DNA from: Bacteroidaceae bacterium
Lineage (GTDB): Bacteria; Bacteroidota; Bacteroidia; Bacteroidales; Bacteroidaceae
Direction: 5' to 3'
Assembly (NCBI GenBank): GCA_017529865.1
Contig: JAFXNA010000004.1
Coordinates: 1-64,000, forward strand
DNA: 64,000 nt
The position numbers and the translations under genes were made by a program. How positions within the stretch are numbered: the first letter of the stretch is position 1; every line of letters begins with the position of its first letter. The notes under the pieces are model-generated. The model saw only the letters and a list, made by a program, of their open reading frames with translations. It did not search any database and had not been told where the DNA came from. This document shows positions 2,361 to 60,417 of this stretch, one piece after another.

Positions 2361-3626
2361 TTAGAATTCGCATTCTTCTTCATTGCTCTTTTTCTGAGAG
2401 TTATTCAGAACATCGGCAACGAAGCGGAAAGCAGGATTTTCTTGGAGATTTTCACGAATAAGAGCCGCTTTCATAACCCCGTAAAGTTCCGTTTTAGAAC
2501 CCATAATCGGAGTGCCGTCTGCGTTCATCGTTCCCGTAGGATAATCCTTATTAAGGAAATCCTTCAAAGCGGAAGTTTCAACAGGGGAAATAACCTGCTT
2601 TTTGGAACGGTTGCGGAAACCGAACAAAGTGGAAATTGCGTTAATTCCAATAACCACTTCGCTTTGCGTTTTTACCACAACTTTCCCCGAAAGATAGTCT
2701 TCGCCGGTCGGAATGTCAAAATTCTTCACGAAAGTGATGAACTGCTTTGCGACTTTTTCCGAACCCTCAAAGTTGATTTCAACACGCATTTTTGCGTCCT
2801 TATCAAAATTGTGGCTATCGTATCCGCAAATAGAAAGTTCTTCCATAAGGCTTTCGTAGGTGCGACCGCAAGAATTCCTGCCGTCATCGTTTTCGTCGCA
2901 AATGTTAAGTTCCGCCAAATACTTTTCGGTGAAACTTTTCCAAAAATCCGAAATAATCGGATTTGCCAAAACAGCCGCCTTAACACAAGAATCTTCATAA
3001 ATCAATTCCAAAGAGTCAAAGCGGGCGTTAGGCCCTACCAATGCAGCGGAAATTTCAGAAGTTTGTCCTTCAAAACCCGCTCGGTCGCAACCGTTATACG
3101 CCACGAAAAAATTCGTGTCGTTATGCAAACGGAAGTTTTTGACAACCCTATCAAGGGCAACACACAAAAATGTCTGTTGCACCATAGATTTTGCCGCCGA
3201 AAATTCGTCAAGCAAAATGACGGCTGCGTGGGCTTCGGGCTGGCCCGTCTTTGCGTTACGCCAAATCGGGTAGCCCTTGGTCTTGTCGCTCGTGGCGACC
3301 TTGGCCTTGGTCTCGGGGTCAACCCTGTAATAGGGCATCCAAGGCGGGATTTCGTCCTCGCCAAAGATTTCGAGTTCGCCCTTTTCGGTCTTGTGGCCAC
3401 GATAGCCGAAGCCGACGATGTCGGCGGCATTAGACCACTGGTTTATGGAGACGGTGATGAGCGGGAGTGCCCAATCGCTAGCAAGCGAACGCACCACCGA
3501 GGTTTTGCCCATGCCCGGCGCCCCTTCAAGGGCGAAGGACTTGCGGGCGTGCCAAACAGTGCCGTCCCCGAGAACTTTACGCCTACCATTTGCAAGCGTC
3601 TTGAATTGTGATGCCGTAACTTTCAT
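2361..3626 (-). CDS. MoxR/CobS-like AAA+ ATPase
   Basis: A 421-aa AAA+ ATPase. Walker A is EGAPGMGKT (about 34-42) and Walker B is VILLDE (136-141); YNGCDRAGFEG near 220 fits the sensor 1/arginine-finger region. An insert of about 45 residues between the strand after Walker A (ADIVGFGYRG) and Walker B is larger than usual. MoxR/CobS-type ATPases work with VWA partner proteins to remodel or load metal into target proteins; two VWA proteins lie elsewhere in this window (41483 and 57893) but not beside this gene. The start at MKVTASQFKT has AAAGGAG eight bases upstream; in-frame codons further upstream fall in promoter DNA and are not coding. Confidence 0.88.
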   Translation of the reverse strand: MKVTASQFKTLANGRRKVLGDGTVWHARKSFALEGAPGMGKTSVVRSLASDWALPLITVSINQWSNAADIVGFGYRGHKTEKGELEIFGEDEIPPWMPYYRVDPETKAKVATSDKTKGYPIWRNAKTGQPEAHAAVILLDEFSAAKSMVQQTFLCVALDRVVKNFRLHNDTNFFVAYNGCDRAGFEGQTSEISAALVGPNARFDSLELIYEDSCVKAAVLANPIISDFWKSFTEKYLAELNICDENDDGRNSCGRTYESLMEELSICGYDSHNFDKDAKMRVEINFEGSEKVAKQFITFVKNFDIPTGEDYLSGKVVVKTQSEVVIGINAISTLFGFRNRSKKQVISPVETSALKDFLNKDYPTGTMNADGTPIMGSKTELYGVMKAALIRENLQENPAFRFVADVLNNSQKKSNEEECEF

Positions 3627-3643
3627 AGTATCAACTCCTTTGA

Positions 3644-3687
3644 CCCTTGGCAACATCGCCTTGGGACACCCCTTAATATAGGGGGGG
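3644..3687 (-). promoter_or_regulatory. 44-bp promoter/leader element, copy 2
   Basis: 43 of 44 bases match 1499-1542. It includes TATATT (3675-3680) flanked by C7 and AAGGGG, then tandem CCAAGG-type repeats ending about 18 bp before the AAA+ start codon. The -35 is poor. Confidence 0.68.
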
Positions 3688-3705
3688 TTCGACGCCATCT
3701 CGTGT

Positions 3706-3726
3706 GGGTGATAACCTAAGTTGGAG
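3706..3726 (+). repeat. 21-bp intergenic motif, copy 5
   Basis: Core GGTGATAACCTAAGTTGGAG, about 25 bp upstream of the -10 of the AAA+ leader. No copy was seen to the right of this one. Confidence 0.72.
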
Positions 3727-4116
3727 CGTGACGGGGTCATTTTAGGGGGTGGCGCGTATAGGGTATAGAGGTGGGGTAATTTGATATTTGATAAGCGCGG
3801 TACTTTTCTTTTTTTATTTCCCAGGGTTTCCAACAGGGGTTCCCACCCATGTTTCGGGACAGGGGTCGGGACACGGTGTCTCGAACACATGTTCGCACCC
3901 AGGAATCGGGACACCAGGCACCAGCTCTCAACTATGTTTCAACATGAAACAAACAAGTTATCAACAGGATATCAACACCCCATCAAAAAATCAAAATCCA
4001 AAACTGGGGGCAGAAAAATAGAAAAAAATAATAAAAGCCCCTGTCATACCCTTTGAAAAATTTTTGGTAGGGGGTATATACAGGGGTTGAAAAAATTTTG
4101 GGGGTGGGGGTGGTTT
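3727..4116. other. Non-coding repeat-rich region, origin candidate
   Basis: No convincing gene. It holds several CGGGACA units (near 3854, 3866, 3907), ACAGGGGT units (near 3831, 3857, 4080), a GTTTCAACATGAAAC palindrome (near 3936), A-rich and G-rich tracts, and the hairpin at 4038-4086. With ssb on one side and an AAA+ gene on the other, it could be a replication origin or a control region. That is inference only. Confidence 0.4.
4038..4086. other. Long imperfect hairpin
   Basis: CCCCTGT (4038-4044) pairs with ACAGGGG (4080-4086) and ATACCC (4046-4051) with GGGTAT (4072-4077), giving 13 base pairs around an A/T-rich loop of about 20 nt. On the minus strand it is downstream of ssb. It has no T-run typical of a terminator. 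Confidence 0.6.
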
Positions 4117-31348: not shown

Positions 31349-31882
31349 CTAGTAGTCCTCGTGGTTGAACTCTCTGAAATACGTATCGACCGTATTCTTT
31401 AGGAGTGCAACAGTTTGGTCATCCATGTGGAAACGGCCCTTGTTGATTTCAAGAGACTTGTCGATGTTGCCATCATCATGTCGCATCGTTGCTGCAAACC
31501 AGTCGCAAATCAACTCAATCATATCGACAAGGTTCATCCCGTTCACTCCGTTGGCGAAATGTTCGGGGTGATGCCTGTTTTCCGCATAGTGATGGTCAAG
31601 AGCCTTTCTCAGACCTGACAGGAACTCGTTATACTCAGGAGAACCGTAGGTGCAGTTTTTGAGCTTCGGAGTGTATTCGTCAAACAGTTCCTTCTCGGGA
31701 GGAAGCAACTTGGAGTCATCATGATGGTCGGCCCTGTTCATGATGTCCTTTGCCATAGTGTACATCTGAATGCGAATGTCATCCGCATGGTTCATGATGT
31801 CCTTGGCGACAAGACCCATGAGCATGCGAACGAAGTCACGATGCTTGTTGGTATCGGCGGTAGAATCGTATGCCGTTTCCAT
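31349..31882 (-). CDS. DUF5662-family HD-like protein
   Basis: A 177-aa helical protein. Conserved-looking parts: RADHHDDSKLLPPEKELFDE, KALDHHYAENRHHPEHF and MNLVDMIELICDWFAATMRH. This HD/H-rich layout with HHPE and MIE(L/M)(I/L)CDW matches DUF5662, a phage and bacterial family related to HD-type metal phosphohydrolases; no substrate is known. It overlaps the Thg1 stop by 1 bp (TAATG). Confidence 0.82.
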   Translation of the reverse strand: METAYDSTADTNKHRDFVRMLMGLVAKDIMNHADDIRIQMYTMAKDIMNRADHHDDSKLLPPEKELFDEYTPKLKNCTYGSPEYNEFLSGLRKALDHHYAENRHHPEHFANGVNGMNLVDMIELICDWFAATMRHDDGNIDKSLEINKGRFHMDDQTVALLKNTVDTYFREFNHEDY

Positions 31883-36950: not shown

Positions 36951-37790
36951 ATGGATTCGTGGAAGCAATGGACAAAGCCAGTTACCATTCCTGGTGAAAA
37001 AATGTTTAAGCTCAAGTTTGAGACGCCAGACGCAGGAGGCAAGATGGGATTGGCCATCTTTGACCACCTTATGCGTCTGTACCAGTATTCTCAGGAAGAG
37101 AACGTTTTTGCAAACCCCTCGTTGACATTGAACGACACAACCGTTCCCGATAACGCTGGTGGAGCTCTCGGTGCAGGAACAGGTGAAATCAGCCAGGGAA
37201 GGCCGCTTATCCAGATACCTCCATCACAGTCAGGCGAGGTTTTCTGTACTCCTCCTGACCCTGCTAATCCGACGAAGAAGACGCTCCGTGTGGTACTCAA
37301 CCTGACCCAATCAGCAATTATTCTTCACGAGACAAACCATGCAATTCACCGCTTCGTAAACCACGGTGAATACATGCATCCAAAATCCAGCGAGATTCTC
37401 GGTGCAGTTGACCAGGACCTTAACATGGGAGTAATGAGCAAAGCACTCCAGGCGAAGCATAACTATGGGGCCGCTATGCGTTACAAAAAGGCAAACGAGA
37501 TGGAAACATATTGGCTTTGCTGCTGCGATGCTGCGAAATACCAGTTTAGCGAAGACGCAATAAAGGCAATCAAGGTTGTAAACAACCAGAACTTGTTGAG
37601 TGCTAATTATGAAGTGCTCGCCAACCAGAAGCAGGCAGACACATTGCAGAAGAACATTGACAACGATAACCTCTGGGAAAACATGTTCGATATCGAGAAG
37701 GAAGACCCGACCAAATACAACCCGCCTAGCGACGATGTGTTCAAGGATTTTTACGACGACGAGAACAAAGAAACTACCAACGAAGTATAA
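36951..37790 (+). CDS. Stand-alone HExxH metallopeptidase-like protein
   Basis: A 279-aa protein carrying HETNH (126-130) in SAIILHETNHAIHRFVNHGE, followed at 147-160 by SEILGAVDQDLNMG. This looks like the zinc-binding HExxH helix plus the second helix (A.D...N) of the peptidase-like domain found in front of VWA domains in DUF2201-type proteins. Here the VWA part is absent. The VWA proteins at 57893-59281 and 41483-45328 carry a corresponding region without the His residues. The N-terminal 90 residues are unrecognised; the C-terminus is acidic. Catalysis is inferred, not shown. Confidence 0.65.
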   Translation: MDSWKQWTKPVTIPGEKMFKLKFETPDAGGKMGLAIFDHLMRLYQYSQEENVFANPSLTLNDTTVPDNAGGALGAGTGEISQGRPLIQIPPSQSGEVFCTPPDPANPTKKTLRVVLNLTQSAIILHETNHAIHRFVNHGEYMHPKSSEILGAVDQDLNMGVMSKALQAKHNYGAAMRYKKANEMETYWLCCCDAAKYQFSEDAIKAIKVVNNQNLLSANYEVLANQKQADTLQKNIDNDNLWENMFDIEKEDPTKYNPPSDDVFKDFYDDENKETTNEV

Positions 37791-39300: not shown

Positions 39301-40014
39301 ATGAGTAGAACATTTGACGAATTGCCTCGCAAGGATTACATGGGAACCATCTCTTGGAGCCGCCCGTATTTCGGAGCACCCCAGCCTATGTTCGGTTCGG
39401 CCATCAAGACCAGCCACCCCGTCTGCATCCGCATCGACAAGGCACATGTCGTTCGCCACGGAGATGCAGCGGACACCAGCATCCTCCCAGACAACAAGCC
39501 GTATATAGAGGTGGAAATGACCCCTCTGCAATGGGCCGAATTCCTTACATGCGGAGGACAGGCGGAAGGTGTCCCGTGCACCATCACAAAGGTTGACGGA
39601 AAGTACATGGGCAAACCCGAAGAGGAAAGCGTTGCCGACGACTATCTCGAAGCAACGAACGAGCATTTCGACGAGTTTGCCGAAGGAATCAAACGGTTCG
39701 AGAAAGAACTTTCAGACGCAATCGAAAGCGGAAAGCCACTGTCAAAAACAAAGATGCAGGAAATGTTGAGCAACATGAAGAGCTTCCGCCACAACAGTGT
39801 TGCAAACCTGGATTTCGTCCGTACCCGTTTTATGGAGGAAATGGGAAACATAGTCGTGAAGGCCAAGACCGAGGTAAACGCGTATGCCGAAATGCACCTG
39901 CACGAACTTGGAGTAAAGTGCCTTATGGACCAGTCGGATAATATGGATGGAGACAAGATAGTAGCCCAGTATCTCAGAAAAGAAATCGGTACATCGGAGG
40001 AACCGAATGACTGA
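39301..40014 (+). CDS. Conserved phage protein, FGSxIxxxxxI family
   Basis: A 237-aa protein. The N-terminal half reads YMGTISWSRPYFGAPQPMFG, then HPVCIRIDKAHVVRHGDAAD, KPYIEVEMTPLQWAEFLTCG and GVPCTITKVDG, the order of a family widespread in phages (G.(I/V).(F/W)SR...LFGS.I.H...I.(L/I).I..A...R; I.V.MS..Q(F/W)); its function is unknown. The C-terminal half is helical. It overlaps the CCA-adding enzyme gene by 8 bp. Confidence 0.83.
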   Translation: MSRTFDELPRKDYMGTISWSRPYFGAPQPMFGSAIKTSHPVCIRIDKAHVVRHGDAADTSILPDNKPYIEVEMTPLQWAEFLTCGGQAEGVPCTITKVDGKYMGKPEEESVADDYLEATNEHFDEFAEGIKRFEKELSDAIESGKPLSKTKMQEMLSNMKSFRHNSVANLDFVRTRFMEEMGNIVVKAKTEVNAYAEMHLHELGVKCLMDQSDNMDGDKIVAQYLRKEIGTSEEPND

Positions 40015-41428
40015 AATAAAGAAATACTTTGACAAGAACAAGGACGACAGAAACGTGTCCTGCATGATGAAACTCGTTCATGCGGTTTCATCTGCTGGTG
40101 GAAAGGCGTATGTCGTCGGCGGTTTTGTCCGTGACGCAATCCTTGGCAAGGACAACAAGGATATCGACTTCGAGATACACGGTCTGGAATCGGGTAAAAT
40201 CGAGAAGCTCCTGTTCGAAGTGAGCGGAAGCCCCGCGTTGAGGAAGGGTTCCTCTTTCGGCGTGTACGGCATCAAGGGTTACGACTTCGATATTGCCATG
40301 CCGAGAAAGGAACACTGCATCGGTAGCAAGCATACTGACTTCGCAGTGTCCGTAGACCCTTCAATGGGTGTCGAAGAGGCTAGCCGCAGAAGGGACTTCA
40401 CCATCAACGCCCTCATGTACGATGTGGAAGCCGATGAAATCGTAGATTGCCACAACGGTTGCAACGACATTGCAAGCAAGACCATTCGCCATGTCTGCGA
40501 TGAAACCTACATTGAAGACGCTCTCCGCGTGTTCCGTGCTGCACAGTTCGCGGCAAGATTCGGTTTCGATATCGCTCCCGAGACAATCGCCCTTTCCCGT
40601 TCGATATCTGGAAAGCTGGTTGACCTGTCTGGCGAACGGGTTGAGTCGGAGATGCACAAGGCCCTGATGAAATCGGACAAGCCGTCGGTGTTTTTCAGGA
40701 AGCTGGTTGAAATGGACGCTATTGATTACTGGTTTCCAGAACTGAGCGCACTCATCGAAACTCAGCAAGCACCTGAGTTCCACCCAGAAGGAAACGTGTT
40801 TGAACACACGATGCTCGTAATCGACCAGGCAGCAAAGGTTAGAGACCGTGCTGATGACCCGTACGCATTCATGCTTACTGCCCTCTGTCACGATTTCGGA
40901 AAGGCAACGACGACATTCTTCAACGAAAAGAAGCAGCGTCTGGTCGCATACGGTCACGACAATGCGGCCAAACCGCTTATCGACTCGTTCATGGACCGTC
41001 TAAGGTTGCCTAACGCTGTTCGTGCATACGTTCAGAACCTTACAGTTCTGCACATGCAGCCGAACATGTATGTCGGCAACGATGCTACGGACTATGCTTT
41101 CAACAACATGTTCGACAAGACGAAGCATGCTGAAGACCTTCTGTTGCTTGCCCGTTGCGACCACTTCGGTCGTGGTGTCCAGCTTGACTACGCCAGGTAT
41201 GAAAGCAAGCTTTCAGCACAGCTCGCAAAGTACCGTGAACTCATGGAGTTGCCAGAGGCCACAGCCGACGATTTCATGAAGCTAGGCGTAAAGCCTTCTC
41301 CGCTTCTCGGGGAAATGCTGGACATGTCGCACAAGTTGCACTTGAAGGGAACTCCTTGCCAGACAGCAATCAAGCTTACACGGAACCAGTTTGCAAAACG
41401 GATTCGAATGCAGAATGCCGAAGCATAG
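40007..41428 (+). CDS. cca: CCA-adding tRNA nucleotidyltransferase
   Basis: A 473-aa protein with the class II nucleotidyltransferase head: YVVGGFVRDAILG (36-48) and DIDFEIHG (52-59, catalytic acids), then SRRRDFTINALMYD near 127 and DTYI/DALRVFRAAQFAARFG-type arm. A C-terminal HD domain follows: HPEGNVFEHTMLV near 258 and LCHDFGKATT near 299. This layout matches bacterial CCA-adding enzymes with an HD phosphohydrolase, which build or repair the 3' CCA end of tRNA. All visible key residues are intact. The start overlaps the previous gene with GGAGGAA upstream. Confidence 0.94.
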   Translation: MTEIKKYFDKNKDDRNVSCMMKLVHAVSSAGGKAYVVGGFVRDAILGKDNKDIDFEIHGLESGKIEKLLFEVSGSPALRKGSSFGVYGIKGYDFDIAMPRKEHCIGSKHTDFAVSVDPSMGVEEASRRRDFTINALMYDVEADEIVDCHNGCNDIASKTIRHVCDETYIEDALRVFRAAQFAARFGFDIAPETIALSRSISGKLVDLSGERVESEMHKALMKSDKPSVFFRKLVEMDAIDYWFPELSALIETQQAPEFHPEGNVFEHTMLVIDQAAKVRDRADDPYAFMLTALCHDFGKATTTFFNEKKQRLVAYGHDNAAKPLIDSFMDRLRLPNAVRAYVQNLTVLHMQPNMYVGNDATDYAFNNMFDKTKHAEDLLLLARCDHFGRGVQLDYARYESKLSAQLAKYRELMELPEATADDFMKLGVKPSPLLGEMLDMSHKLHLKGTPCQTAIKLTRNQFAKRIRMQNAEA

Positions 41429-41482: not shown

Positions 41483-44400
41483 TTATACTGGTTTTTTAAA
41501 CGAGTATGCTTCGATTTCCTTCTGCCACGTTTCGTATGGAATCCATGTAACCAGTTTCTTGAATGTTTGTGGTGTTTGCCTTTCGCCCTGTGGATGGCAG
41601 CATACGCAGCAAAGTCTACTTGGAAGCACCGTAATCTGGTCAAACCTCCACTTGATTTCCTTTGGATTACTAGGAATGCTATATGCAGGACTTGACGGGA
41701 AACAGAAGTCACTGTAAATGATGATAAAGTCATAGTCTGTTCCGTAGCTCAACTTGTATTGTTTCTTGGTTTTCGCATCGTACTTGACCTTACGTTGCTT
41801 ACGTGGCTTTACTGACCCGTCTGGGTTCAATTCAGGCGGATAATAGTAAGGACTCAAACGGTCGGCAATACTATATACGTTAGTTCCACCACCGCCAACA
41901 GCAAGTTTAACCGCACCCGTATAATTACTTACGGAGATATCTCCCCTAGCAATGTCACGAGCCTTCTGAATGCTGAACGGACGTGGGATATCGCATCCAT
42001 CATCCCAGAATGCATAATCCATGGTAACACCATTCGTTTTCAGCTTAGATGCGATGCTGCTAAGAAGGTTCGCCGCACCAGTCAGGATGGTTTCTTTACA
42101 CCACATAGAGCCAGATGCGTCAATCGCAAGAAGGACACGTGGGGCATAGTCGTCTTGCATGTTGAACGAGCCTGTGCTGGGATGGTTGCGTGTCGGACTT
42201 CTGTAGTCCCTAATATCACCCTCTGTATTTGATGGACGGCGGGCATTTGAAGCCATACGAAGGATAAGGTTTGCTATTCTAAGCTTCACGTCGGTTCTCA
42301 TATATGCTTTGGCTGCATTGTCGTCGTTGATTTCCTTTGTGAGAGAATTCAGCTCTTCCAAGTTAGCGTCGTATTCACCTGATTGGTTCTTGATTTCTAT
42401 GTTATTTTCAATTTCCTGTGCAGCCTGTTGCAAGGTATTTTCCATTTCAGTTGCCGTACTCTGCATCTCGGAGAATGTATTTGTCTCATTCGCAAACTGT
42501 GCAAGGTTTGAATTCAACCCCTCGATTGGGTTTCCACTATTCTTCTTGATTTCGCTAATGAGATTGATTTTAAGACCAGAAAGCCCACCTACACTTGTTG
42601 AACCGCTTGTTCCTGATTCTGGTGTAGAATCAGAATTATCTTCACCTAGCTGAGGAGCCGAGCTTTTTCCAGGAGTGCCGTCAGAACCAGTAGGGCCATC
42701 AGTGCCATCTGTACCAATACGGCCATCCGTACCGTCACCACCTTCAGTACCAATAGGACCATCAGTTCCATCAGAGCCGTCAGAACCGTCAGAACCAATA
42801 GGACTATCAGAACCTGTTGTACCACCAGTACCCGTCCTAATATCTCCACCTTCTTCTATCGGTTCATTTCCAGATTGTCCAGAAGTTTTACCTTCACCTT
42901 CTGTTCCTCGTGCACCGTTGGTCGCTGTCTGCTGAGCCTCCTGAGCAGCTTCCTGCAACTTTTGTAGTCCAGTTCGTGCCCCATTTGGACCTTGCTGACC
43001 ACCCTGTTGACCACCTTGGTCGCCACCTTGTTGACCGCCTTGCTGGCCATTAGGAGTCGGGAACCCTTCGTAGCCTTCGTTTCCACCTTGGTCGCCACCC
43101 TGTTCACCACCCTGTTGGCCACCTTGGTCGCCACCTTGCTGCCCACCCTGTTCGCCACATTGGTCGCCACCTTGTTGACCGCCTTGCTGACCACCCTGTT
43201 CGCCACCTTGCTGGCCACCCTGTTCGCCACCTTGCTGGCCACCCTGTTCGCCACCTTGCTGACCACCTTGGTCTCCACCTTGCTGACCACCCTGTTCACC
43301 ACCTTGGTCGCCACCCTGTTCGCCACCTTGCTGGCCATTCTGCATAGCTTGCTTTAACGCCTTTTGCATCTGCTGAGTGCCCTTCTTAATCTGGTTGGCA
43401 CCCTGTTGCATCTGCTTGGAACCATTCTGCATCTGCTGGGAGTCTCCATTCTGACAACCCTGTGCATATTGGTTGGCACCTGCTTCTAGCTGCTGTGCAC
43501 CCTGTTCGATTGTCTGCTGGGCTTGTTTTGCCTCAGGGCTACCACCACAAGATTGAGCACATTGTGCAGCAGCATTACGAGCATCCTGAGCAGATTGGTG
43601 AGCCTGCTTTCTTACCGATTCTCCATCAGTAGGCTGGGCCGATGCCGCCTCGTTTGCCGAACTCTGTGCTTCATTGGATGTAGAAGCCGCCTGTTGTGAA
43701 CCATTAGAGAGTTGCTGAGAGCCTTGCTTTCCCTGAGAAGAGCCCTGTGCTCCACTAGACTCCATTGCCTGTTTCATTTGCTGTGCGCCAGCGTCTATCT
43801 GTTGGGCACCAGCCTTCATCTGCTGTGCCCCTAGCTGTTGCTGGGCTGTATTACCACTCTGGACACCAGCATCGTAGCGTTTAGCACCTTGTTCCAAATT
43901 CCTTGCACCTTGGTTCACCATGTTTTGAGCCGCTTGTGCTTCAGGAGAATTTCCACATGCCTGAGCACATTTTGCCGCACCCTGCTTTGCGTCGTTCGCC
44001 GCTGTCGATGCTTGCTGTGACATGCTCTGACCATTCTGTGAAGACCACTGTTGAGAATCCTGTTGAGAACCCTGCTGTGAGCCCTGCTGTCCATTGGAGT
44101 TTGCCGAACTGGATGCCTGCTGAGAAGCAGAGGCACCTTCTTGCATCTTTTGTGATGCCTGCTGAGCACCCTGCTGAGCACCAGCATTTTGCATAGCCTG
44201 TTGCATGTGCTGTGAAACCTGCTGCATCTGCTGAGAAGCTTGCTGCATTTTCTGAGCAGCCTGCTCCATTGATGGCTGGTCACCTGCCTTAGCGGCATTT
44301 TCATATTCATTTGCAGCTTCCTTCATTTCGTTAGCCGCTGCTTGCATTTCAGACAATGCCTGTTGTGCTTCGCTTGAATTGCCGCATGCCTGGGCACATT

Positions 44401-45328
44401 TTGCTGCACCCATCTTTGCGTTTAGAGCACCTGCTCTAGCCTGCTGTGCAATCTGGCGGGGGGTCTTTTGTTCGCCACCATTCTGTTGACCACCCTGTTG
44501 AGCACTCTGTTGAGAACCCTGTTGCATCTGCTGCTGTTGCTGTCCTTGGGAGTGCTGTGGACGACTTGCACCCCATCTACTTGTCTGTGGTTGTTGAGCA
44601 CCCTGTTGGCCACCCTGCTGCATCTGCTGTTGTTGGGCTTGTTTCTGTTCCTCAGTCATACCACCGGCCATCGCCTGAGGCATTGCCTCACCTTGTACAG
44701 CCTGTTCGAGAAAACCGAGATACTTTCGGATGGTTTCTAGGTTCCATTCTTCATCAGTAAACTCGGCCTTCTGTTTTGTAAATTGTCCTGACGGGTCATT
44801 CGGGTCCTCTTTGACCTCTTCATTCATCTCGCCGTACAGTGCCTTGACACCAGCCATCCATTGAGGGTTTTCGTACGCTTTTTCCAATGCGGCAAGACCA
44901 GCATCCACAGATGCGTTTCCAGTCTTTAGCTTGCTAAGGATACCGTAGTGAGCCATCATGATTTGGACGGCTCTCGTATGTGCACTACCCTGTCCGTTAC
45001 GGTAGTCATAGTATCCGCACTTAACTGCAAGGCCAATCGTTGCAACAATGGCACAGAAAGTCGTCATGTCACTTTCTTTATACAGTTTGTGAATGAATTC
45101 TTCGTTGTATATAATGCAACCGTTCTTGATGTGTTCACCATAATTAGATGCAAACACGATTGTGCTTGTTTCGTTGTGACGTGCTGGGTTCCACGATAGA
45201 CCCTGGAGAATGGGCATAAAAATAGAGACGGCTGAATTCATCTCGCTCGCCCTATCCCTCATTTCTTCAAGTTCTTTAGCAACCTGCTGTGAAAATTCCT
45301 TCGGGTTTTGTGCGTTAATGTCGCTCAT
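41483..45328 (-). CDS. Giant Q/G/A-repeat VWA-domain protein
   Basis: A 1281-aa protein in three parts. Residues 1-205: a helical region (NYGEHIKNGCIIYNEEFIHK) like the degenerate peptidase-like front of VWA partner proteins. About 210-850: low-complexity Gln/Gly/Ala/Ser; it includes three modules of about 138 residues, each with AA(K/Q)CAQ(A/S)CG, and a run of QGG(Q/E/D) units. About 850-900: a G/S/D/T/P-rich stretch (GSDGTDGPIGTEG). About 1055-1281: a VWA domain with MIDAS DASGS at 1070, LAVGGGGTNVYSIADR and IIYSDF. VWA partners of MoxR ATPases bind targets through the MIDAS. The length and repeats are very unusual and suggest a long flexible or coiled scaffold. Start after GAGGATTAGTA. Confidence 0.86.
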   Translation of the reverse strand: MSDINAQNPKEFSQQVAKELEEMRDRASEMNSAVSIFMPILQGLSWNPARHNETSTIVFASNYGEHIKNGCIIYNEEFIHKLYKESDMTTFCAIVATIGLAVKCGYYDYRNGQGSAHTRAVQIMMAHYGILSKLKTGNASVDAGLAALEKAYENPQWMAGVKALYGEMNEEVKEDPNDPSGQFTKQKAEFTDEEWNLETIRKYLGFLEQAVQGEAMPQAMAGGMTEEQKQAQQQQMQQGGQQGAQQPQTSRWGASRPQHSQGQQQQQMQQGSQQSAQQGGQQNGGEQKTPRQIAQQARAGALNAKMGAAKCAQACGNSSEAQQALSEMQAAANEMKEAANEYENAAKAGDQPSMEQAAQKMQQASQQMQQVSQHMQQAMQNAGAQQGAQQASQKMQEGASASQQASSSANSNGQQGSQQGSQQDSQQWSSQNGQSMSQQASTAANDAKQGAAKCAQACGNSPEAQAAQNMVNQGARNLEQGAKRYDAGVQSGNTAQQQLGAQQMKAGAQQIDAGAQQMKQAMESSGAQGSSQGKQGSQQLSNGSQQAASTSNEAQSSANEAASAQPTDGESVRKQAHQSAQDARNAAAQCAQSCGGSPEAKQAQQTIEQGAQQLEAGANQYAQGCQNGDSQQMQNGSKQMQQGANQIKKGTQQMQKALKQAMQNGQQGGEQGGDQGGEQGGQQGGDQGGQQGGEQGGQQGGEQGGQQGGEQGGQQGGQQGGDQCGEQGGQQGGDQGGQQGGEQGGDQGGNEGYEGFPTPNGQQGGQQGGDQGGQQGGQQGPNGARTGLQKLQEAAQEAQQTATNGARGTEGEGKTSGQSGNEPIEEGGDIRTGTGGTTGSDSPIGSDGSDGSDGTDGPIGTEGGDGTDGRIGTDGTDGPTGSDGTPGKSSAPQLGEDNSDSTPESGTSGSTSVGGLSGLKINLISEIKKNSGNPIEGLNSNLAQFANETNTFSEMQSTATEMENTLQQAAQEIENNIEIKNQSGEYDANLEELNSLTKEINDDNAAKAYMRTDVKLRIANLILRMASNARRPSNTEGDIRDYRSPTRNHPSTGSFNMQDDYAPRVLLAIDASGSMWCKETILTGAANLLSSIASKLKTNGVTMDYAFWDDGCDIPRPFSIQKARDIARGDISVSNYTGAVKLAVGGGGTNVYSIADRLSPYYYPPELNPDGSVKPRKQRKVKYDAKTKKQYKLSYGTDYDFIIIYSDFCFPSSPAYSIPSNPKEIKWRFDQITVLPSRLCCVCCHPQGERQTPQTFKKLVTWIPYETWQKEIEAYSFKKPV
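42992..43344. repeat. 12-bp tandem repeat coding for QGG(Q/E/D)
   Basis: Tandem 12-bp units (CCACCCTGTTCG/CCACCTTGCTGG types), about 25 in number with one interruption near 43050-43080, inside the VWA gene. The third and first codon positions vary little, so recent expansion by slippage is likely. Confidence 0.8.
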
Positions 45329-45356
45329 TACTAATCCTCATTGATGCAACTACAGT

Positions 45357-45863
45357 TTATACCAGCGTGCGGCATACGGCGGCGACGTTGGTTATGTATT
45401 TCTTGACAATTTCGACGACAGCATCCTCGCATTCGGGAACCTGGATTTCTGGCACGAATGATTCGTACGAGTCCTCGCCGAGGATGAAAGATTCGTCAAG
45501 ACCATTCATTATCAGGTCTTTTTGGTAGATTTCCGATGCAACGGCACGCTTTACGAACTTCAACTTTCCGCTGCGGCTCATCATTGGAAGGAACAGCGTG
45601 AGGTTCTTCATGAAAGTGCCCGTAGACTCCGAGGTGAACGTATCCATGTAGATGATTTCGTTTCCACCACGGTCGTAATACTTTTCGGGAACATGCTTCT
45701 CGGTAAGGCACATGGCGTAGCCAGCCTCTCCCTCGAAGTATTTCTTCTCAGTCCACTTTCCGTTCTTCAACGGCATAGTGGTGCCCATATCAAACCCAGC
45801 TTTCACGGGGTCGTTTTCAAGCCCGCAATCCTGGCAGAGCTTCAATATTCTATTAACTAGCAT
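45357..45863 (-). CDS. Unknown protein, 168 aa
   Basis: Starts MLVNRILKLCQDCGLENDPV. The CQDCGL start loosely recalls that at 11644-12165. The middle has MPLKNGKWTEKKYFEGEAGY. Not recognised. It precedes the giant VWA gene by 28 bp and may be co-transcribed with it. Confidence 0.74.
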   Translation of the reverse strand: MLVNRILKLCQDCGLENDPVKAGFDMGTTMPLKNGKWTEKKYFEGEAGYAMCLTEKHVPEKYYDRGGNEIIYMDTFTSESTGTFMKNLTLFLPMMSRSGKLKFVKRAVASEIYQKDLIMNGLDESFILGEDSYESFVPEIQVPECEDAVVEIVKKYITNVAAVCRTLV

Positions 45864-49180: not shown

Positions 49181-49233
49181 CGTTTTCCCCGAAAAAGTTA
49201 TAAACTCTTTACAGTTAAGCATTGAGTATACTT

Positions 49234-50925
49234 ATGAACAATAAACAGCTTTTTGAGCAGTCAGCGAGCAAGATTCTGTCAAAGAACCAGCTCGAAGGAG
49301 TGATGAAGCTCCACAACGCCATATTTGAATGCGGGCAGGAAGAACTGGTTGCAGACACCGTGGCAGACGCCGTTGTTGACGCTGTCAGGGATTCCGTTGA
49401 CGAAGTGGCCGAAGAACAGGTCGATAACGTCGTAGATGACGCCGTCGAAAACGCCCCTTCAATAAAGATTGTCCCAGCGGACAGAGCCCGTCTCGAATCC
49501 CTTATCGACAGCATGAGCGATAAAGAAAAACAGATATTTTTCGAGAGCCTAGACGACCAGCAAGTACAGGTTCTAATGGAAGGCCGTATCGGGGCTTTAA
49601 CTAAGTTCTTGAATTTCTTTACAAAAGCAGGTCGAAAGGCGAATAGGCTGGATAAGTTTGAAAAATTGGCTTCGAAGGATGCCGATTTGACCAACAAGTG
49701 GCTAAACCTTTCAAAAATCGGCGATGGTAACCTCAATTCTAAAAACGCATCTGATTTAAGAAAACTCGGTATGAAGCGAGATGCCGTCCGTCAACAGATG
49801 AACGACATGAGATTCAAGGCTGGCAAGGGAGATGGCTCCGAGCTGAAGGAAATGGATAAAATTGCAAGGCAAAATAAGTCATTCAACTTTAATGCAGAGC
49901 AACTGGAAGGGTTTAAAGCCGATGAACTAGCCAAAGCAAAGAAGGCATATAACACAAGTATAAATAAGGCACAAGCGACTCTCAACAACGACGCCGAAGT
50001 ACAAGCACTTGAACAACAGCGCAAAACAGCGCTGGAGAACATAAAGAACAATCAAAATCTTACCCAACTCGACCGTGATGCGGCGATTAAGAACACCAAT
50101 AAGGAGTTTGACGAGAAGATTGCTAATACACAGGCTATGAAGAATTATAACAACTCAGTTAATAAAGCGACTACCAAATTTAACGACAACACGCAAGTGA
50201 TTAAGAACAAGTACCAGACTCACCTAGACGATGCGTACGAAAGAGCAGGTGGATTTGATGGCTTCAACGGAACTTCAAATGTAGGACGTGGCTCTCGATA
50301 CAGAGGAACGGGCCGTTATAACCAAGGGCCGTTCGGTAGTCCGTACGGATACCCTCCGTACATGAACCCAGAGGCATGGGGACAGTTCACTGGAAAGTTC
50401 TCAACAATGCGTAAAGTCGCTAGGGGACTTGTAGGAAGCTACAAAGCGTTCATGGCCGCTCTCAAGTTGGGTGCATTGGGCGTACTTGGCATTGGTGCGT
50501 ACAAGGTGTACAGCATCTTCTCCAACCCAGAAGAAGTTGACGCTGCTAACACTGGTTCCTTCGGCGGAATCTTTGGTGGTTCCAACAGTGGTTCCAACGG
50601 TGGTTCCAACGGTGATGAAGAGGAAGGAAGCACAGTCGATACTGTTAAGAAAGTGATTGCCGTACTAGGTGGCGGTGTGGCAGGTAATGTTATCGCACGT
50701 TTCCTCGGGTTCAACAACACCACTGGAAAGACGGTTGGCACACTACTCGGTGCCGCTCTAATGGCCTACTTCATGTTCCTGAACGGTGGTGACGAGGAGA
50801 ACGCCAAGGAAATGCTCGACGAATATAACAATGCAACCCCACAGGATAAGCAAATCATCAACGAGGCGTTGGACATCCCTGGTCTTGGCGAGGCATTGCA
50901 GAGCCTATACGATGAAAACCACTAA
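49234..50925 (+). CDS. Large Ala/Asn/Gly-rich protein, 563 aa, possible virion or internal protein
   Basis: Residues 1-30 (MNNKQLFEQSASKILSKNQL, then EGVMKLHNAIFE) resemble the start of the next gene's product (VDAHNALFEGFE). Next come an acidic/Val-rich stretch (DTVADAVVDAVRDSVDEVAE), long helices (about 120-335), a G/R/Y-rich stretch (RGSRYRGTGRYNQGPFGSPY), then two glycine-rich hydrophobic segments (LKLGALGVLGIGAYKVYSIF and VGTLLGAALMAYFMFLNGG). The layout suits a phage internal, ejection or membrane-interacting protein; none is recognised. The ATG has a weak site; an upstream TTG is less likely. Confidence 0.75.
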   Translation: MNNKQLFEQSASKILSKNQLEGVMKLHNAIFECGQEELVADTVADAVVDAVRDSVDEVAEEQVDNVVDDAVENAPSIKIVPADRARLESLIDSMSDKEKQIFFESLDDQQVQVLMEGRIGALTKFLNFFTKAGRKANRLDKFEKLASKDADLTNKWLNLSKIGDGNLNSKNASDLRKLGMKRDAVRQQMNDMRFKAGKGDGSELKEMDKIARQNKSFNFNAEQLEGFKADELAKAKKAYNTSINKAQATLNNDAEVQALEQQRKTALENIKNNQNLTQLDRDAAIKNTNKEFDEKIANTQAMKNYNNSVNKATTKFNDNTQVIKNKYQTHLDDAYERAGGFDGFNGTSNVGRGSRYRGTGRYNQGPFGSPYGYPPYMNPEAWGQFTGKFSTMRKVARGLVGSYKAFMAALKLGALGVLGIGAYKVYSIFSNPEEVDAANTGSFGGIFGGSNSGSNGGSNGDEEEGSTVDTVKKVIAVLGGGVAGNVIARFLGFNNTTGKTVGTLLGAALMAYFMFLNGGDEENAKEMLDEYNNATPQDKQIINEALDIPGLGEALQSLYDENH

Positions 50926-50943
50926 TGGTTTAAGGAGAATGTT

Positions 50944-52170
50944 ATGAACAATATGCAGAAATACGATGTCGCTCTCATGGAAGGGGTAAGTCCCAAGAGG
51001 CTTGCCAAGAAGCGCATGAGGGCATTTATTGAGGCCGTAAGCGAAATCGCTCCTAAAGCTCTGGTAGAGGCTGTCGTTGACGCACACAACGCACTGTTTG
51101 AAGGGTTTGAGTTCCGACTTCCTAACGGAGTACGTGGAATTACTGGTGCTCGACCAAGTGGTTTCAGCCATGGCTATGGCAACAAGACAATATACAATGG
51201 AAACGACCTTGTTCGTACCCGTTCCAATCCGAGGCCTCCTACTGCCGCAAACACAGACTTTCACTTGCAGACACATCAACAAGGTTCTTTTGCTCCTGTG
51301 AGTCACGGCAATGTCGTAACGTACGACCCAGCCCCAAGGATTGACCCACGTGAACCTGAGACACGTATCACGTACCACCCTGATACAAGCTGGGAAGAAC
51401 AACGCATGGCAGAGGCGGCTCCGCCTCCTCCACCTCCAGAAGAGCTGCCAGCACCACAGGCAGTACGCCAGCACGCACCGCAGCCTGCTCCTGCCCCAGC
51501 TCCGACACCAGAACAGCCGAAGGCAGAATGCCCTCCTGTATGTCCAGAACCAGCTCCTGCCCCTACTACCGAAGTGCCATCTAAAAATGATGCGGGCACG
51601 CCGAAGAAGGAAGCACCTAAGAAGGCGGCAAAACCATATACATGGAATCCAAAGGATTTCGAGGCGATACAGAGTCCCAAGTGCAGCACAACTCATCCAT
51701 TCGTTATTAATCTCATCTCATACAGTTCTGATGAGGGAGAGATGGCAGCAAAGAGAGCAAGGAGTCTGTTCAACAAAAACATCGATGGTGTATACATTTA
51801 CCAGTTCGACGGTCTCGCCCAAAACACCACTCGTCGTGACGTATGGCGTGTTCGTATCGGACACTTCAAGTCCAAAGCGGCTGCCCGTACATACTTCCGC
51901 AAGTTTGTACACCCAATTGTTGGCGACCAGTACAAATGGTGGGTTGGAAGATGCGATGGCGATAAAGGTGATAAGATGAAGGACGGTACATTCAGGCTCG
52001 CCAAAGACATCACCGATAACGACTGCGTTGACATTAGCTCTCAAAAGAAAAGTTCAGAGCAGCCATCTTCCAATGCGTCGTCACAACCTGCCGAAAACAA
52101 GCAGGCTACACCGAAGGTCGTAACTAAACCTGGCGATAAACCGTTTATGGATTTCGCCGACGAAAAGTAA
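50944..52170 (+). CDS. Pro-rich protein with SPOR-like C-terminus, 408 aa
   Basis: Starts MNNMQKYDVALMEGVSPKRL with AAGGAGAATGTT before it. Residues about 40-55 (VDAHNALFEGFEF) match the start region of the upstream protein. About 155-215 is a Pro/Ala linker (PPPPPPEELPAP and on). About 250-350 reads FVINLISYSSDEGEMAAKRA, YIYQFDGLAQNTTR, DVWRVRIGHFKSKAAARTYF and YKWWVGRCDGD, the strand-helix-strand pattern of SPOR domains (peptidoglycan-binding). A structural or cell-wall-contact role is likely if this is right. Confidence 0.72.
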   Translation: MNNMQKYDVALMEGVSPKRLAKKRMRAFIEAVSEIAPKALVEAVVDAHNALFEGFEFRLPNGVRGITGARPSGFSHGYGNKTIYNGNDLVRTRSNPRPPTAANTDFHLQTHQQGSFAPVSHGNVVTYDPAPRIDPREPETRITYHPDTSWEEQRMAEAAPPPPPPEELPAPQAVRQHAPQPAPAPAPTPEQPKAECPPVCPEPAPAPTTEVPSKNDAGTPKKEAPKKAAKPYTWNPKDFEAIQSPKCSTTHPFVINLISYSSDEGEMAAKRARSLFNKNIDGVYIYQFDGLAQNTTRRDVWRVRIGHFKSKAAARTYFRKFVHPIVGDQYKWWVGRCDGDKGDKMKDGTFRLAKDITDNDCVDISSQKKSSEQPSSNASSQPAENKQATPKVVTKPGDKPFMDFADEK

Positions 52171-52180
52171 GGAGTGAATT

Positions 52181-53746
52181 ATGGAAAAGAAGTATATTAT
52201 CGTAAGCAAAAAAGACGGTAAGCCAATAGACAACAAGCAATACACAAAAGAAGAATTCAAGAAGAAGGCTTACGAACTCATGGAGCAAACTGGGTTGGAC
52301 AGAGACGCGATGAACGATACTTTCACCTATCAGGAAGTAGCTGAAGGCGGCGTCTCCACGGAAGAGAACACATCTGGTTCACCCAAAGCTACTAACGGTG
52401 AGTTTGACTCGGAAGACAAGAGTGATGATTACGAGTTTCAGGACAAGAACGACACATATCAGGCCACCGTCTCCGACGACGATGAAGGCTGGAACAAGGT
52501 ACTCGATAATTTGGACCAAATTCCACCAGACATCGCAGGCCTTGTTAGCGAACATAAAGATAGTCTCGCACTTAAAGAAGGAGGCACAAACGGAAACGCT
52601 GCTATGAAGAAAAACGCTATCCGCGTTCTGTACGTGTATAACGAGTTTCTTAAATTTTACAATACATACTGCTCAAACGACGGTAAGCTTCCCCCTCAGC
52701 TTGCAGCATACCTCAGAACGGGAAAGGGGTTCGGCCTTATAAAGGGATTTACACGTGAGGCCTCATGCGACGTAATCAAAAAAGATATGACATCAATCCT
52801 TGAGGACATGTTCGAGGCAATAGACGACTACTACAAGTCTGACGACCCAGGTAGCGAAATCGAGGAGTTCTACGACGAGGTCAAGGATTTTGACGAAGAA
52901 CTTGAAAATCTTGCCGAGCTGCTAACTAATCTAAGTGAAGAAAGTTCAAAGAACTGGAATATAGACCCTGACGACAAGAAGCGTTTGGCCAAGCTAACGG
53001 CAGAGAACGACGAAGCTTTCAAGAAGTTCTGCGGAGGAAATCCGACGGGCAAATCACTGTCCAAATACCTCATGGACATTGCAATAAACAAGTATCATCT
53101 TGGACGGCTCAAGATGAACTTCAATGACCCAGAGAGCACGCTAGATGGTAGCTGGACTAGCCCAGAAGCAAAGGAATCCAAAAACGTAAGGTTGAGCGAG
53201 AACATAGATGACTATCTCGACTTGAAGCATGCGAAAATTCTCGATACCGATGAGGACAAAAAGAATCTCAAAGAAATCACTGACGCCTTCGAAAAGGGAG
53301 ACATGACACAAAAAGATGCACAAGGTGCAATCAACAGGCTGGTAATCGCGGCCCGTGACAAAATGGTGGAATCCCTTAGACTTTTCTTTAAGTTCGTTGG
53401 CATCACAAAGACAGATAAAATGAATCTGTTCACATCAGGATTGAAACGTCTTGATGAACCCGATTATCAGAACAACTGGCGTTCGCTTGTTAAACACTAC
53501 AAGGAATCCATTGAAAAGAAAATCGATATATTCAAGAATGCTCACTCCAACGACATGACAAAGGAGAGCCTTGATGAGTGCGTCAATATCCTCGACGGCC
53601 TTCTGAAAAATGCTGATGTCCTGCTTAAAGACGTTGAAGAAAAGAATGGTACTCAGCTGATGGCACATTCCCGTGAAATTAGCGAACGCATAAAGGAAGT
53701 TCAGGAAAAAACCGCTGCTGCACAGAAGGCTTTTCCGAAACAATAA
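52181..53746 (+). CDS. Acidic helical protein, 521 aa
   Basis: Not recognised. Starts MEKKYIIVSKKDGKPIDNKQ after AAGGAGTGAATT. Acidic (DEGWNKVLDNLDQIPPDIAG; KDFDEELENLAELLTNLSEE) and helical to the end (TAAAQKAFPKQ). It has the style of the acidic 451-aa protein at 37820-39175. It closes the three-gene block and is followed by a terminator. Confidence 0.76.
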   Translation: MEKKYIIVSKKDGKPIDNKQYTKEEFKKKAYELMEQTGLDRDAMNDTFTYQEVAEGGVSTEENTSGSPKATNGEFDSEDKSDDYEFQDKNDTYQATVSDDDEGWNKVLDNLDQIPPDIAGLVSEHKDSLALKEGGTNGNAAMKKNAIRVLYVYNEFLKFYNTYCSNDGKLPPQLAAYLRTGKGFGLIKGFTREASCDVIKKDMTSILEDMFEAIDDYYKSDDPGSEIEEFYDEVKDFDEELENLAELLTNLSEESSKNWNIDPDDKKRLAKLTAENDEAFKKFCGGNPTGKSLSKYLMDIAINKYHLGRLKMNFNDPESTLDGSWTSPEAKESKNVRLSENIDDYLDLKHAKILDTDEDKKNLKEITDAFEKGDMTQKDAQGAINRLVIAARDKMVESLRLFFKFVGITKTDKMNLFTSGLKRLDEPDYQNNWRSLVKHYKESIEKKIDIFKNAHSNDMTKESLDECVNILDGLLKNADVLLKDVEEKNGTQLMAHSREISERIKEVQEKTAAAQKAFPKQ

Positions 53747-57868: not shown

Positions 57869-57896
57869 AATATACATTCTTCCCATGAAAAGTCAA
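57869..57896 (-). promoter_or_regulatory. Sigma70-like promoter fused to a stop codon
   Basis: TTGACT (57891-57896), 16-bp spacer, TATATT (57869-57874), driving the exported protein and perhaps DNA polymerase. The TGA inside the -35 is the stop of the VWA gene. Confidence 0.78.
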
Positions 57897-59281
57897 GGGT
57901 CCTTTTTTATGCAGCTCATAATCTCCTTGCATCTCATAATCCTTCTTCGTGGAACCCACCGAGGAGGGTTGCTCCCGTCAGCCGTGCAAATCCACAGCAT
58001 GTTGTCAACGGGGATTTCCCTCGGTTTCGGTATCTCGTCGAAAATCATGTCCGAAAAGATGATTATGCCCGAATACTTCCTCACAAGTTTATTATCCCTG
58101 AGCATATCAAACACGCACTGCGGGTTGGTCCCGCCACGTCCAGTCACATCAAAGCTCTTGCGTGAACCTCCAGGCTTGAACGTCATCGGGAGGGTGCACT
58201 TGCAGTCCCACCACGAGAAATCTATCTGGCTCCCCGTGGCAATCTTGGCTATCAGGCAGGCTGCTGCGGAAAGGTCTTCGTCAGACATCGAACCAGACGA
58301 GTCTGCGGCAAGGAGAAGCTTGCAATCATATACTGAACGCTGACCTGGGAACAGCAGGTTGTATCGCCTGTTCTGCCTCATTCTAGTCGATTCCGTACGC
58401 TGCGAGACTACCGTGCCTATGAACGAACGGATTATACGCCTGTGGTCAACGGGAGGCTTCTGTGCGGCGAGTATCTTCATCAGGATGTCACCAGCGCCAA
58501 GGCCCCAGCTAGTCCCGTCGAAACCACCGTTTTCCTCCAGATGCTTCGTCTCCATCGCAATGTCGCTAGCAACGGTCTCGTTCGGTGTCCAGTTGTCGGA
58601 ACGGGTTCCGTCACAGAAGTATTCTTCAAGGGCTTCCTGCGGAGTTCCTGGACCGTCGTTACCCTCACCTTCTCCACCTAATGTTTCGGACTGGTCTGAA
58701 TCATCTGGGCCGCCCCAATCGGAATTGTTTGCAGACCGTTCCTCCTGGGATTTTCCACTCACCGAGTGGAAAAAGTCGCCATCATCGGAATTGTTGGCCG
58801 CCCGTTCCATCCACATCGCCACCTTCTCGTGGTAATCGCAGTCGCCGTCCCATTCCTTTCCAGTCTCGTTCTTGTACAGAACCTTGCCCTGTTCGTAGTA
58901 AGTGTTCGCCTTGCTCTTATCGAGAGCGTCAGGGAAAGATGTTCCTGTCAGGGTAAGACACCCCCTCGCCATGGCGTAGCAGATGATGTCGCTGGAAAGG
59001 AGATTGAACTTGTTGTCAACGGCACGCTTGGTGACATGGTGCAAAGCGATGCGGGAAGCCTCTATGTATAGAATTTTCGCAAGGTCGCTCATGTCCATCA
59101 TATCCACCCAACGGCTGTTCGCAACCAGATAAAGCTGGCCGGGCATGTGGGCATCAAGCATCAGCGTCTGTGTTCTGTCGTCCTCGATTAGCGGCTGTGC
59201 CATGTTTATGTAGCACAGGGCAGGAGCGTTCACCGACCCCAACAGCATCTTAGCCTGTTCTATCTTGTATAACGCGGACAT
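57893..59281 (-). CDS. VWA-domain protein (DUF2201/CobT-like)
   Basis: A 462-aa partner of the MoxR ATPase gene directly upstream. The C-terminal VWA domain has an intact MIDAS: DSSGS (327-331), Thr385 in GRGGTNP and Asp411 in FSDM. The front domain (about 65-110: YIEASRIALHHVTKRAVDNK, SSDIICYAM) matches the peptidase-like part of DUF2201 proteins, but the HExxH is IEASR, so both His are lost; it is a pseudo-peptidase. Between them is an acidic, Gly/Ser-rich linker (about 163-225). MoxR-VWA pairs act as ATP-driven remodelling or metal-loading machines (RavA-ViaA, CobS-CobT). Start overlaps the ATPase stop as TGATG, so the two are made together. Confidence 0.88.
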   Translation of the reverse strand: MSALYKIEQAKMLLGSVNAPALCYINMAQPLIEDDRTQTLMLDAHMPGQLYLVANSRWVDMMDMSDLAKILYIEASRIALHHVTKRAVDNKFNLLSSDIICYAMARGCLTLTGTSFPDALDKSKANTYYEQGKVLYKNETGKEWDGDCDYHEKVAMWMERAANNSDDGDFFHSVSGKSQEERSANNSDWGGPDDSDQSETLGGEGEGNDGPGTPQEALEEYFCDGTRSDNWTPNETVASDIAMETKHLEENGGFDGTSWGLGAGDILMKILAAQKPPVDHRRIIRSFIGTVVSQRTESTRMRQNRRYNLLFPGQRSVYDCKLLLAADSSGSMSDEDLSAAACLIAKIATGSQIDFSWWDCKCTLPMTFKPGGSRKSFDVTGRGGTNPQCVFDMLRDNKLVRKYSGIIIFSDMIFDEIPKPREIPVDNMLWICTADGSNPPRWVPRRRIMRCKEIMSCIKKDP

Positions 59282-60417
59282 CAGTTGACCTGGTTGAATT
59301 CACTAAAGCTGGCTTTGAGGGCGGCCTTCTTCTGTTCCCCGACATGTTCACGAAGGACGGATAGCCAGTTCTTCTTGTTCTCGGAAATCTGGAACACAAG
59401 GTCTATCAGGTGGAAGTTGTACATCTGGGCCCGTATCTCTGGGGGTACGGCAAAGTAGAAATACCAGAAGTTCAGGGACATCGTCTTAGACTGCTTTGCG
59501 TTCTCGTATGCGTTAGAAATCTTTGTGATAACAGCGTCGCTCAACTGTGTCAACTGCGGAACGCTCATAGCGTCGATGATGCCCTTGTACGCCATCCAGT
59601 CGCTTTCATTCGCTTTCAGAACCATGTCGGCATCGAGGGTGTTGCCGTTCTTTCTGAACCATTCTGTGAACACCTTGGCCATATCGGGACCAAGCGTTGA
59701 CGTGGCATCTATCAGCAAGGTTTCCATGCCGCCAGGGACAGGATTTCCGTTCGCATTGACATAATCGCCGCCTTTATACGCATTGTCGAAAAGACGGGCG
59801 AAGTTTTCCCAGGAACGCGGGTTCGCCGTGTTCTCGTCCTCGGAGTCAACCTCGGTGTCATCCACATACAAAGCGTTGTTGTGGGAAGCGATGAAGCGCC
59901 TGACGATAGGGTTGATACCAGCGCTTTCCGCCCACTTGTCCCAATACTTCGCATCTACTTCGACGTGATAGCGTGCGAAACGGGTGAAGAGGGCCCTGTT
60001 AAGAGGCATGACCTGGTTGGAGTCCACGTTCGACGGGTTGATAGCGAGGACGACACGGGAACCTTCGGGAAGGGTGAACCCGTTGAACGACTGTTCTGGA
60101 GAACACAGCTTCATGAGGGCTGCGATGATTTCGCCCTTCGCCCTGTTTATTTCGTCGATGAACACTAGGGTCGGTTCTGTCGTGTCCATCCAGTCTGGTT
60201 TCGTATGGTGGTGGACATGGTTCTCGATTTCCAACAATCCGATAAGGTCACCAGAGTCGCCAGACTGCGAACAGTCGAGGATAACAAGCCGCAGGCCGAG
60301 TATCTTTGCTAGCGAACGGCAGAACTGGGTCTTTCCGATGCCAGGGGGTCCGATAAGCAAAGCGGGGGTCTTACACCATAAACGAGTAATTCTCTTCTCA
60401 ATAACGCCAAACTGCAT
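59281..60417 (-). CDS. MoxR-family AAA+ ATPase
   Basis: A 378-aa AAA+ ATPase. Walker A is GPPGIGKT (23-30), Walker B LVFIDEIN (84-91), followed by AKGEIIAALMKLCSPEQSFN and RVVLAINPSNVDSNQVMPLN (sensor 1) and ALFTRFARYHVEV (arginine finger region). This is a full MoxR core. Its stop overlaps the start of the VWA gene (TGATG), typical of co-produced pairs. Preceded by an AAGGATATTTGA site. Confidence 0.93.
   Translation of the reverse strand: MQFGVIEKRITRLWCKTPALLIGPPGIGKTQFCRSLAKILGLRLVILDCSQSGDSGDLIGLLEIENHVHHHTKPDWMDTTEPTLVFIDEINRAKGEIIAALMKLCSPEQSFNGFTLPEGSRVVLAINPSNVDSNQVMPLNRALFTRFARYHVEVDAKYWDKWAESAGINPIVRRFIASHNNALYVDDTEVDSEDENTANPRSWENFARLFDNAYKGGDYVNANGNPVPGGMETLLIDATSTLGPDMAKVFTEWFRKNGNTLDADMVLKANESDWMAYKGIIDAMSVPQLTQLSDAVITKISNAYENAKQSKTMSLNFWYFYFAVPPEIRAQMYNFHLIDLVFQISENKKNWLSVLREHVGEQKKAALKASFSEFNQVN

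Follow-up and report, generated by a model that had tools for sequence, protein, structure and literature searches.

MoxR-VWA pairs are widespread in phages, and in the literature searched the role assigned to them in building virions is based on a single archaeal virus and otherwise inferred. In group 2.2 jumbo phages the pair consists of a MoxR AAA+ ATPase and a metallopeptidase-vWA protein, for which a function in virion assembly has been proposed (Iyer et al. 2021; PMC7824862). A further type is that of N4 gp24/gp25 in the Schitoviridae, such as Escherichia phage Pollock, whose "metallopeptidases" of ~365-390 aa join DUF2201_N to DUF2201 and hold an intact HEXXH motif (HETWH). In the Acidianus two-tailed virus (ATV), p892 is a binding partner and stimulator of the MoxR ATPase p618, and has been inferred to function in tail development (PMC4124505). 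For the rubisco activase CbbQO, experiments have shown that the VWA MIDAS binds a carboxylate on the rubisco surface and that MIDAS mutants lose substrate sensing, and the linker of CbbO has been proposed to transmit force (PMC4660213). As a kind, a phage VWA cochaperone of MoxR is already known.

The protein described here, of 1281 aa, is encoded in the first 64 kb (the window) of a 317-kb contig (G000:C26) that was binned with a 3.3-Mb, 59-contig bacterial assembly. Like the pair of Iyer et al., it belongs to a T4-like jumbo phage, carries its VWA domain at the C-terminus after a linker, and has a MoxR gene in the same genome and a paralogue beside MoxR. It differs in that HEXXH is lacking, the N-terminal domain has no detected homology, 420-750 residues with one to three helical modules are inserted, and the gene has a promoter-like box of its own and does not adjoin MoxR. 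The window also encodes a MoxR + 462-aa VWA pair that resembles N4 gp24/gp25, and it is through this 462-aa paralogue that the 1281-aa protein is related, within the VWA superfamily, to the Schitoviridae proteins, whose intact HEXXH it does not have. ATV p892 is likewise a large viral VWA protein and its best viral fold match, but p892 comes from an archaeal virus, is an experimentally shown MoxR partner, and has the fold alone in common with it. CbbO, the VWA partner of CbbQ, is similar in that a long stretch of low conservation precedes a C-terminal VWA domain with a perfect MIDAS; it is, however, a bacterial metabolic chaperone, and the part of the source consulted describes no repeat modules in it (PMC4660213). 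The original prediction knew of no described phage protein of this design. That was too broad for the succession of N-terminal domain, linker and VWA domain in company with MoxR, which has been described (PMC7824862), and holds for the insert and the separate box: in the open-access literature searched no description was found of CxxxC modules in variable number combined with hypervariable repeats and a separate late-type box.

Genomic setting

Among the neighbours of the 1281-aa gene is that of a T4-like family B DNA polymerase, and a T4-type tail sheath stabiliser is encoded further along the contig; therefore, the contig is that of a T4-like jumbo phage, which was probably co-binned with the bacterial assembly rather than integrated. 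Relatives were sought in viral and species-representative genome collections. The close ones are in IMG/VR, on contigs that reach 419 and 422 kb, from samples that we take, by their numbers, to be rumen metagenomes.

All relatives with enough sequence have the same gene order. It begins with a MoxR-type AAA+ ATPase, the candidate motor (59281..60417, minus strand; AAA_5 E=1.3e-13, phrog_1297 E=4.7e-35), whose gene is overlapped by that of the 462-aa DUF2201-type VWA paralogue (57893..59281, minus). The polymerase and an oppositely oriented block follow, and the order continues with small ORFs, the 1281-aa gene and, on the opposite strand, a CCA-adding enzyme (40007-41428, plus). In every relative spanning both, 12-13 kb separate the 1281-aa gene from the closest MoxR gene. 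The window also holds a tRNA-His guanylyltransferase gene (31882-32916, minus); despite this and the CCA-adding enzyme, ARAGORN found no tRNA genes in the window.

The block at 49222-53746 (plus) consists of three fast-evolving ORFs, at 41-57% between subclades against >90% for the polymerase. The first of them starts with LFEQSA.KILSKNQL, and similar starts are found in ORFs at positions 175108 and 177128 of the contig that lie behind a TATAAACT box. This start is perhaps an internal-head targeting leader.

The gene and its orthologues

The coordinates 41483..45328 given in the original prediction are right, and the strand is minus: the frame is open, begins with ATG and has GAGG ~8 nt 5' of it, and the plus-strand reading of the same interval was rejected, with stops throughout. 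A frame broken in related phages had been named as grounds for abandoning the prediction. Instead, six further frames are complete (L002, 1306 aa; L003, 1267; L080, 1264; L085, 1008; L086, 975; L083, 951), and four more are interrupted by contig ends alone. The N-terminal domain and the VWA end can be aligned along their full length across the orthologues. Against the nearest relative, L003, dN/dS is ~0.15 in the N-terminal domain, ~0.12 in the modules, ~0.25 in the VWA domain and ~0.49 in the lead into it. These values show purifying selection on the two end domains and, together with the orthologue comparison, indicate that the modules and the frame are selectively maintained and the repeats free to change.

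Beyond this clade no relative was detected, either by tblastn against 50,697 phage records, in a genome-contig collection, or among 150 related bacterial genomes, its own excepted. Pfam, PHROGs and NCBIfam gave nothing usable for the entire protein.

The VWA domain

The C-terminal VWA domain claimed in the original prediction is well founded. It covers residues 1059-1281 (41486..42154, minus) and has the Rossmann-like fold and the MIDAS signature DxSxS...T...D of the superfamily, with D1070, S1072, S1074, T1149 and D1207 invariant in seven orthologues; a C-x-C-C motif near the last strand is also conserved. Its model (pLDDT ~75 over the domain) matched integrin I, factor B and Rpn10 VWA domains in a Foldseek search of the PDB. 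For the preceding lead, residues 918-1058 (42155..42577, minus), a low-confidence model gives a largely helical structure.

None of the Pfam, PHROG and NCBIfam models recognises the domain directly. BLASTP against the 462-aa protein of the same phage gave E=4e-7, and hhalign of the two VWA families 96.4% (E=1.1e-9), from which the domain is judged homologous to the VWA domain of the MoxR-linked paralogue. Its possible connection to DUF2201 runs through the family of that paralogue, itself a sub-threshold DUF2201 match. In the viral Foldseek library ATV p892 ranked first (E=8.7e-5), with low TM-scores of 0.29/0.14, followed by phage VWA, metallopeptidase and CobT-like proteins.

The explanation that we favour, at about even confidence, is that the 1281-aa protein acts late as a VWA substrate adaptor, or cochaperone, of a phage MoxR chaperone in virion assembly or maturation. 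It is suggested by the homology of its VWA domain to the 462-aa protein, whose gene overlaps that of MoxR in a locus that is syntenic in the relatives, and by the fact that the best viral fold match is a partner of MoxR. It is also drawn by analogy with CbbQO, with ATV p892 and with the pair of Iyer et al. The low TM-scores of p892 count against it, as do the want of a direct family-model match for the VWA domain and the N-terminal domain, which has no detectable homology to that of the paralogue.

The N-terminal domain

The N-terminal domain, residues 1-222 (44663..45328, minus), is ~50% identical between subclades and has no family match. It contains no HEXXH: the stretch made equivalent by MAFFT reads VATIG, against HETWH in Pollock and HELLH in the Moorella phage. 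Comparison of profiles gave no match, and hhalign assigned 0.1-0.4% to its relation with the DUF2201_N metallopeptidase; both runs aligned the stretch around NPxFIHxL at those probabilities. Homology to the N-terminal domain of the 462-aa paralogue was likewise not detectable by hhalign. The AlphaFold model of the domain, with pLDDT <50, was set aside.

The modules and repeats of the middle region

Between the two end domains the complete orthologues have an insert of 421 to 749 residues with at least one module in each. The window has three modules, at residues 290-382 (44183..44461, minus; CAQACG at 311), 433-525 (43754..44032, minus; CAQACG at 454) and 569-663 (43340..43624, minus; CAQSCG at 590). 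The original prediction of three modules with a CAQxCG core is borne out, the cores being spaced by 143 and 136 residues; the repeated unit itself comprises ~93 residues, to which a linker of variable length is added. Pairwise identity is 36-48%, which is 14-22 s.d. above composition-preserving shuffles; therefore the likeness is no compositional accident. In the AlphaFold models (pLDDT mostly 70-92) each module is made of long helices of ~22-25, 30 and 32 residues joined by short turns, and CxxxC closes the first helix. No significant fold match to solved structures was obtained, and Csp-like or toxin-like bundles were rejected on that ground. Copper storage proteins (Csp) are four-helix bundles lined with many cysteines; each module has two cysteines, module 3 has three, and the Csp fold matched at E ~4-5.

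The number of modules differs among the phages: three in the window, L002 and L003, two (modules 1 and 3) in L080, whose group misses module 2, and one in L083, L085 and L086.

The repeat tracts lie between module 3 and the lead. Most of the units QGG[QEDK], 25 in the full protein where the original prediction had about 25 QGG(Q/E/D), fall in a tandem QGG(Q/E/D) array at 42989..43337 (minus), in which Tandem Repeats Finder resolved 12-bp units into 24/48/72-bp higher-order repeats. An SDG/TDG-type tract occupies 42674..42797 (minus). Comparison between isolates, suggested with the original prediction as a check, revealed that even near-identical phages have tracts of different length and sequence. 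L002 and L003 have 18 QGG units and, instead of the SDG/TDG type, GEPPSGPG repeats; one-module phages have SDG-type repeats where the window has its QGG tract; and between L083 and L085, 99% identical in the N-terminal domain, the total length changes by 57 residues.

Such variation between near-identical phages, and module numbers of one, two or three, would be expected if the middle region had arisen as a side effect of replication slippage and of duplication, tolerated as ballast in a protein that works like the short 462-aa paralogue. This seems quite unlikely, however: the modules of L003 and the window are 97% identical with the low dN/dS given above, CxxxC and the helix pattern are retained where the remaining sequence has diverged to ~50%, and no complete orthologue has lost all its modules or reduced the insert below 421 residues. 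The proposed cochaperone with a tether accommodates ends that are under purifying selection and a middle that is free in length. In such a protein the modules and the slippage-prone repeats could form a length-adjustable tether, tuning the distance at which MoxR acts on virion parts while a giant capsid or tail is being assembled; we hold this refinement to be unlikely.

A promoter-like box

A TATAAACT box, a putative late promoter, lies at 45354..45361 (minus), its first base 33 nt from the ATG of the 1281-aa gene. When the 8-mers of the first 184 kb of the contig were ranked by their enrichment 5' of ORFs, this sequence came out on top: 21 of its 30 copies have an ORF start no more than 60 nt downstream, whereas the median for permuted 8-mers was 8%. 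Distances to the ORF are typically 23-40 nt, a spacing that resembles that of the T4 late promoters, TATAAATA. Copies in the window include those at 36893, 37786, 45361 and 49199. The box of the 1281-aa gene overlaps the stop codon of the preceding ORF, and GGTATAAACTGTAG is conserved 5' of the gene in all six relatives compared, past that stop, while the following bases differ. Three relative loci of 19.5 kb contain just two copies, one at the 1281-aa orthologue and one at a gene of 519-532 aa; none was found upstream of the MoxR, 462-aa and 419-aa VWA genes.

The box also precedes genes for the T4-type tail sheath stabiliser, an amidase and an SLT protein. The conserved copy at -33, common to these genes, would place the 1281-aa protein in late assembly, and TATAAACT can be regarded as a candidate for the late promoter of the whole clade of jumbo phages. 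Caution about late timing is needed because the box also precedes genes for NrdD, a nucleotide-sugar epimerase and a TnpB-like protein. The last of these is an IS605 OrfB/TnpB-like gene at positions 64311-65756 of the contig (L007 311-1756, plus). Another TATAAACT box lies 5' of a 279-aa ORF at 36951-37790 (plus) that has a HETNH (HEXXH) motif and no family match; it is possibly a late zinc peptidase.

A conserved late-type box of its own, common to tail and lysis genes, would equally suit a structural or internal virion protein, in which a long flexible tether or scaffold carries a VWA head that binds a virion protein and no MoxR motor takes part. No MoxR gene adjoins the 1281-aa gene, and the three-gene block at 49222-53746, which also opens with this box, has a similar rate of evolution. 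On the other hand, the VWA domain is closest to MoxR-linked VWA domains and the protein matches no structural-protein family, and we consider this reading rather unlikely. The long scaffold with a binding head envisaged by the original prediction is in part supported, since its anatomy fits an N-terminal domain, a tether composed of helices and low-complexity sequence, and a VWA domain with intact MIDAS.

MoxR ATPases and VWA paralogues

A MoxR gene adjoins that of the 462-aa paralogue and not the 1281-aa gene, and the window contains a more diverged MoxR-like ATPase as an alternative candidate motor (2361..3914, minus; phrog_1297 E=5e-19, AAA E=1.2e-4), with a homologue in G001. A second MoxR ATPase is encoded in G001 and G166. 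The peptidase motif is degenerate in the 462-aa protein (IEASR); its relatives in N4-like phages and the Moorella phage have DUF2201_N + DUF2201, an intact HEXXH and an ATPase gene nearby. A third VWA protein of the clade, of 419 aa, is encoded in G001 (G001:C1:167089-168219, minus; L005), ~14 kb from the second MoxR gene, and the 419-aa proteins have the motif degraded to IESVR/IEAVR, with IESVR in that of G001. A search of related genomes with the PF13203 profile returned a single, uninformative match, and a 602-aa ORF of L047, picked up by a crude filter for VWA motifs, was dropped, having no Pfam match. A further AAA+ match of the search that identified the ATPases proved ClpX-like: it is phage-encoded in G001 near 342 kb (L093 829-2076) and has a zinc-finger-like N-terminus.

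The ClpX homologue of G001, and the several substrates implied by at least two MoxR-like ATPases, could point to a host-takeover adaptor whose VWA domain binds a host protein and presents it to an AAA+ machine, of the phage or of the host, that remodels or degrades it. The late-type box and the lack of any relative in the bacterial genomes searched speak against this role, which appears improbable.

A proposed cochaperone with a tether

Domain identity, homology, conservation, the promoter-like box and the variation in module number are demonstrated by comparison of sequences. The partnership with MoxR, the substrate, the timing and the function of the tether are steps that we infer. Against the partnership, the gene stands 12-13 kb from MoxR and is set apart from the operon by its own box. 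In the proposed late cochaperone, the metal in the VWA MIDAS would bind a virion protein by one of its acidic side chains, and the N-terminal domain would dock on a MoxR hexamer or on another partner. The insert of 420-750 residues would act as a flexible tether: the number of modules and the length of the repeats would determine how far it reaches, and its exact sequence would be of little importance.

The clade has several MoxR and VWA genes, with one VWA gene apart from the MoxR operon; this gene has its own late-type box, and the putative tether that it encodes evolves as modules are gained and lost. Its one, two and three modules form a natural length series in which the linker of a VWA adaptor as a force transmitter could be set against a linker that provides reach only, and TATAAACT offers a candidate late promoter consensus for these phages.
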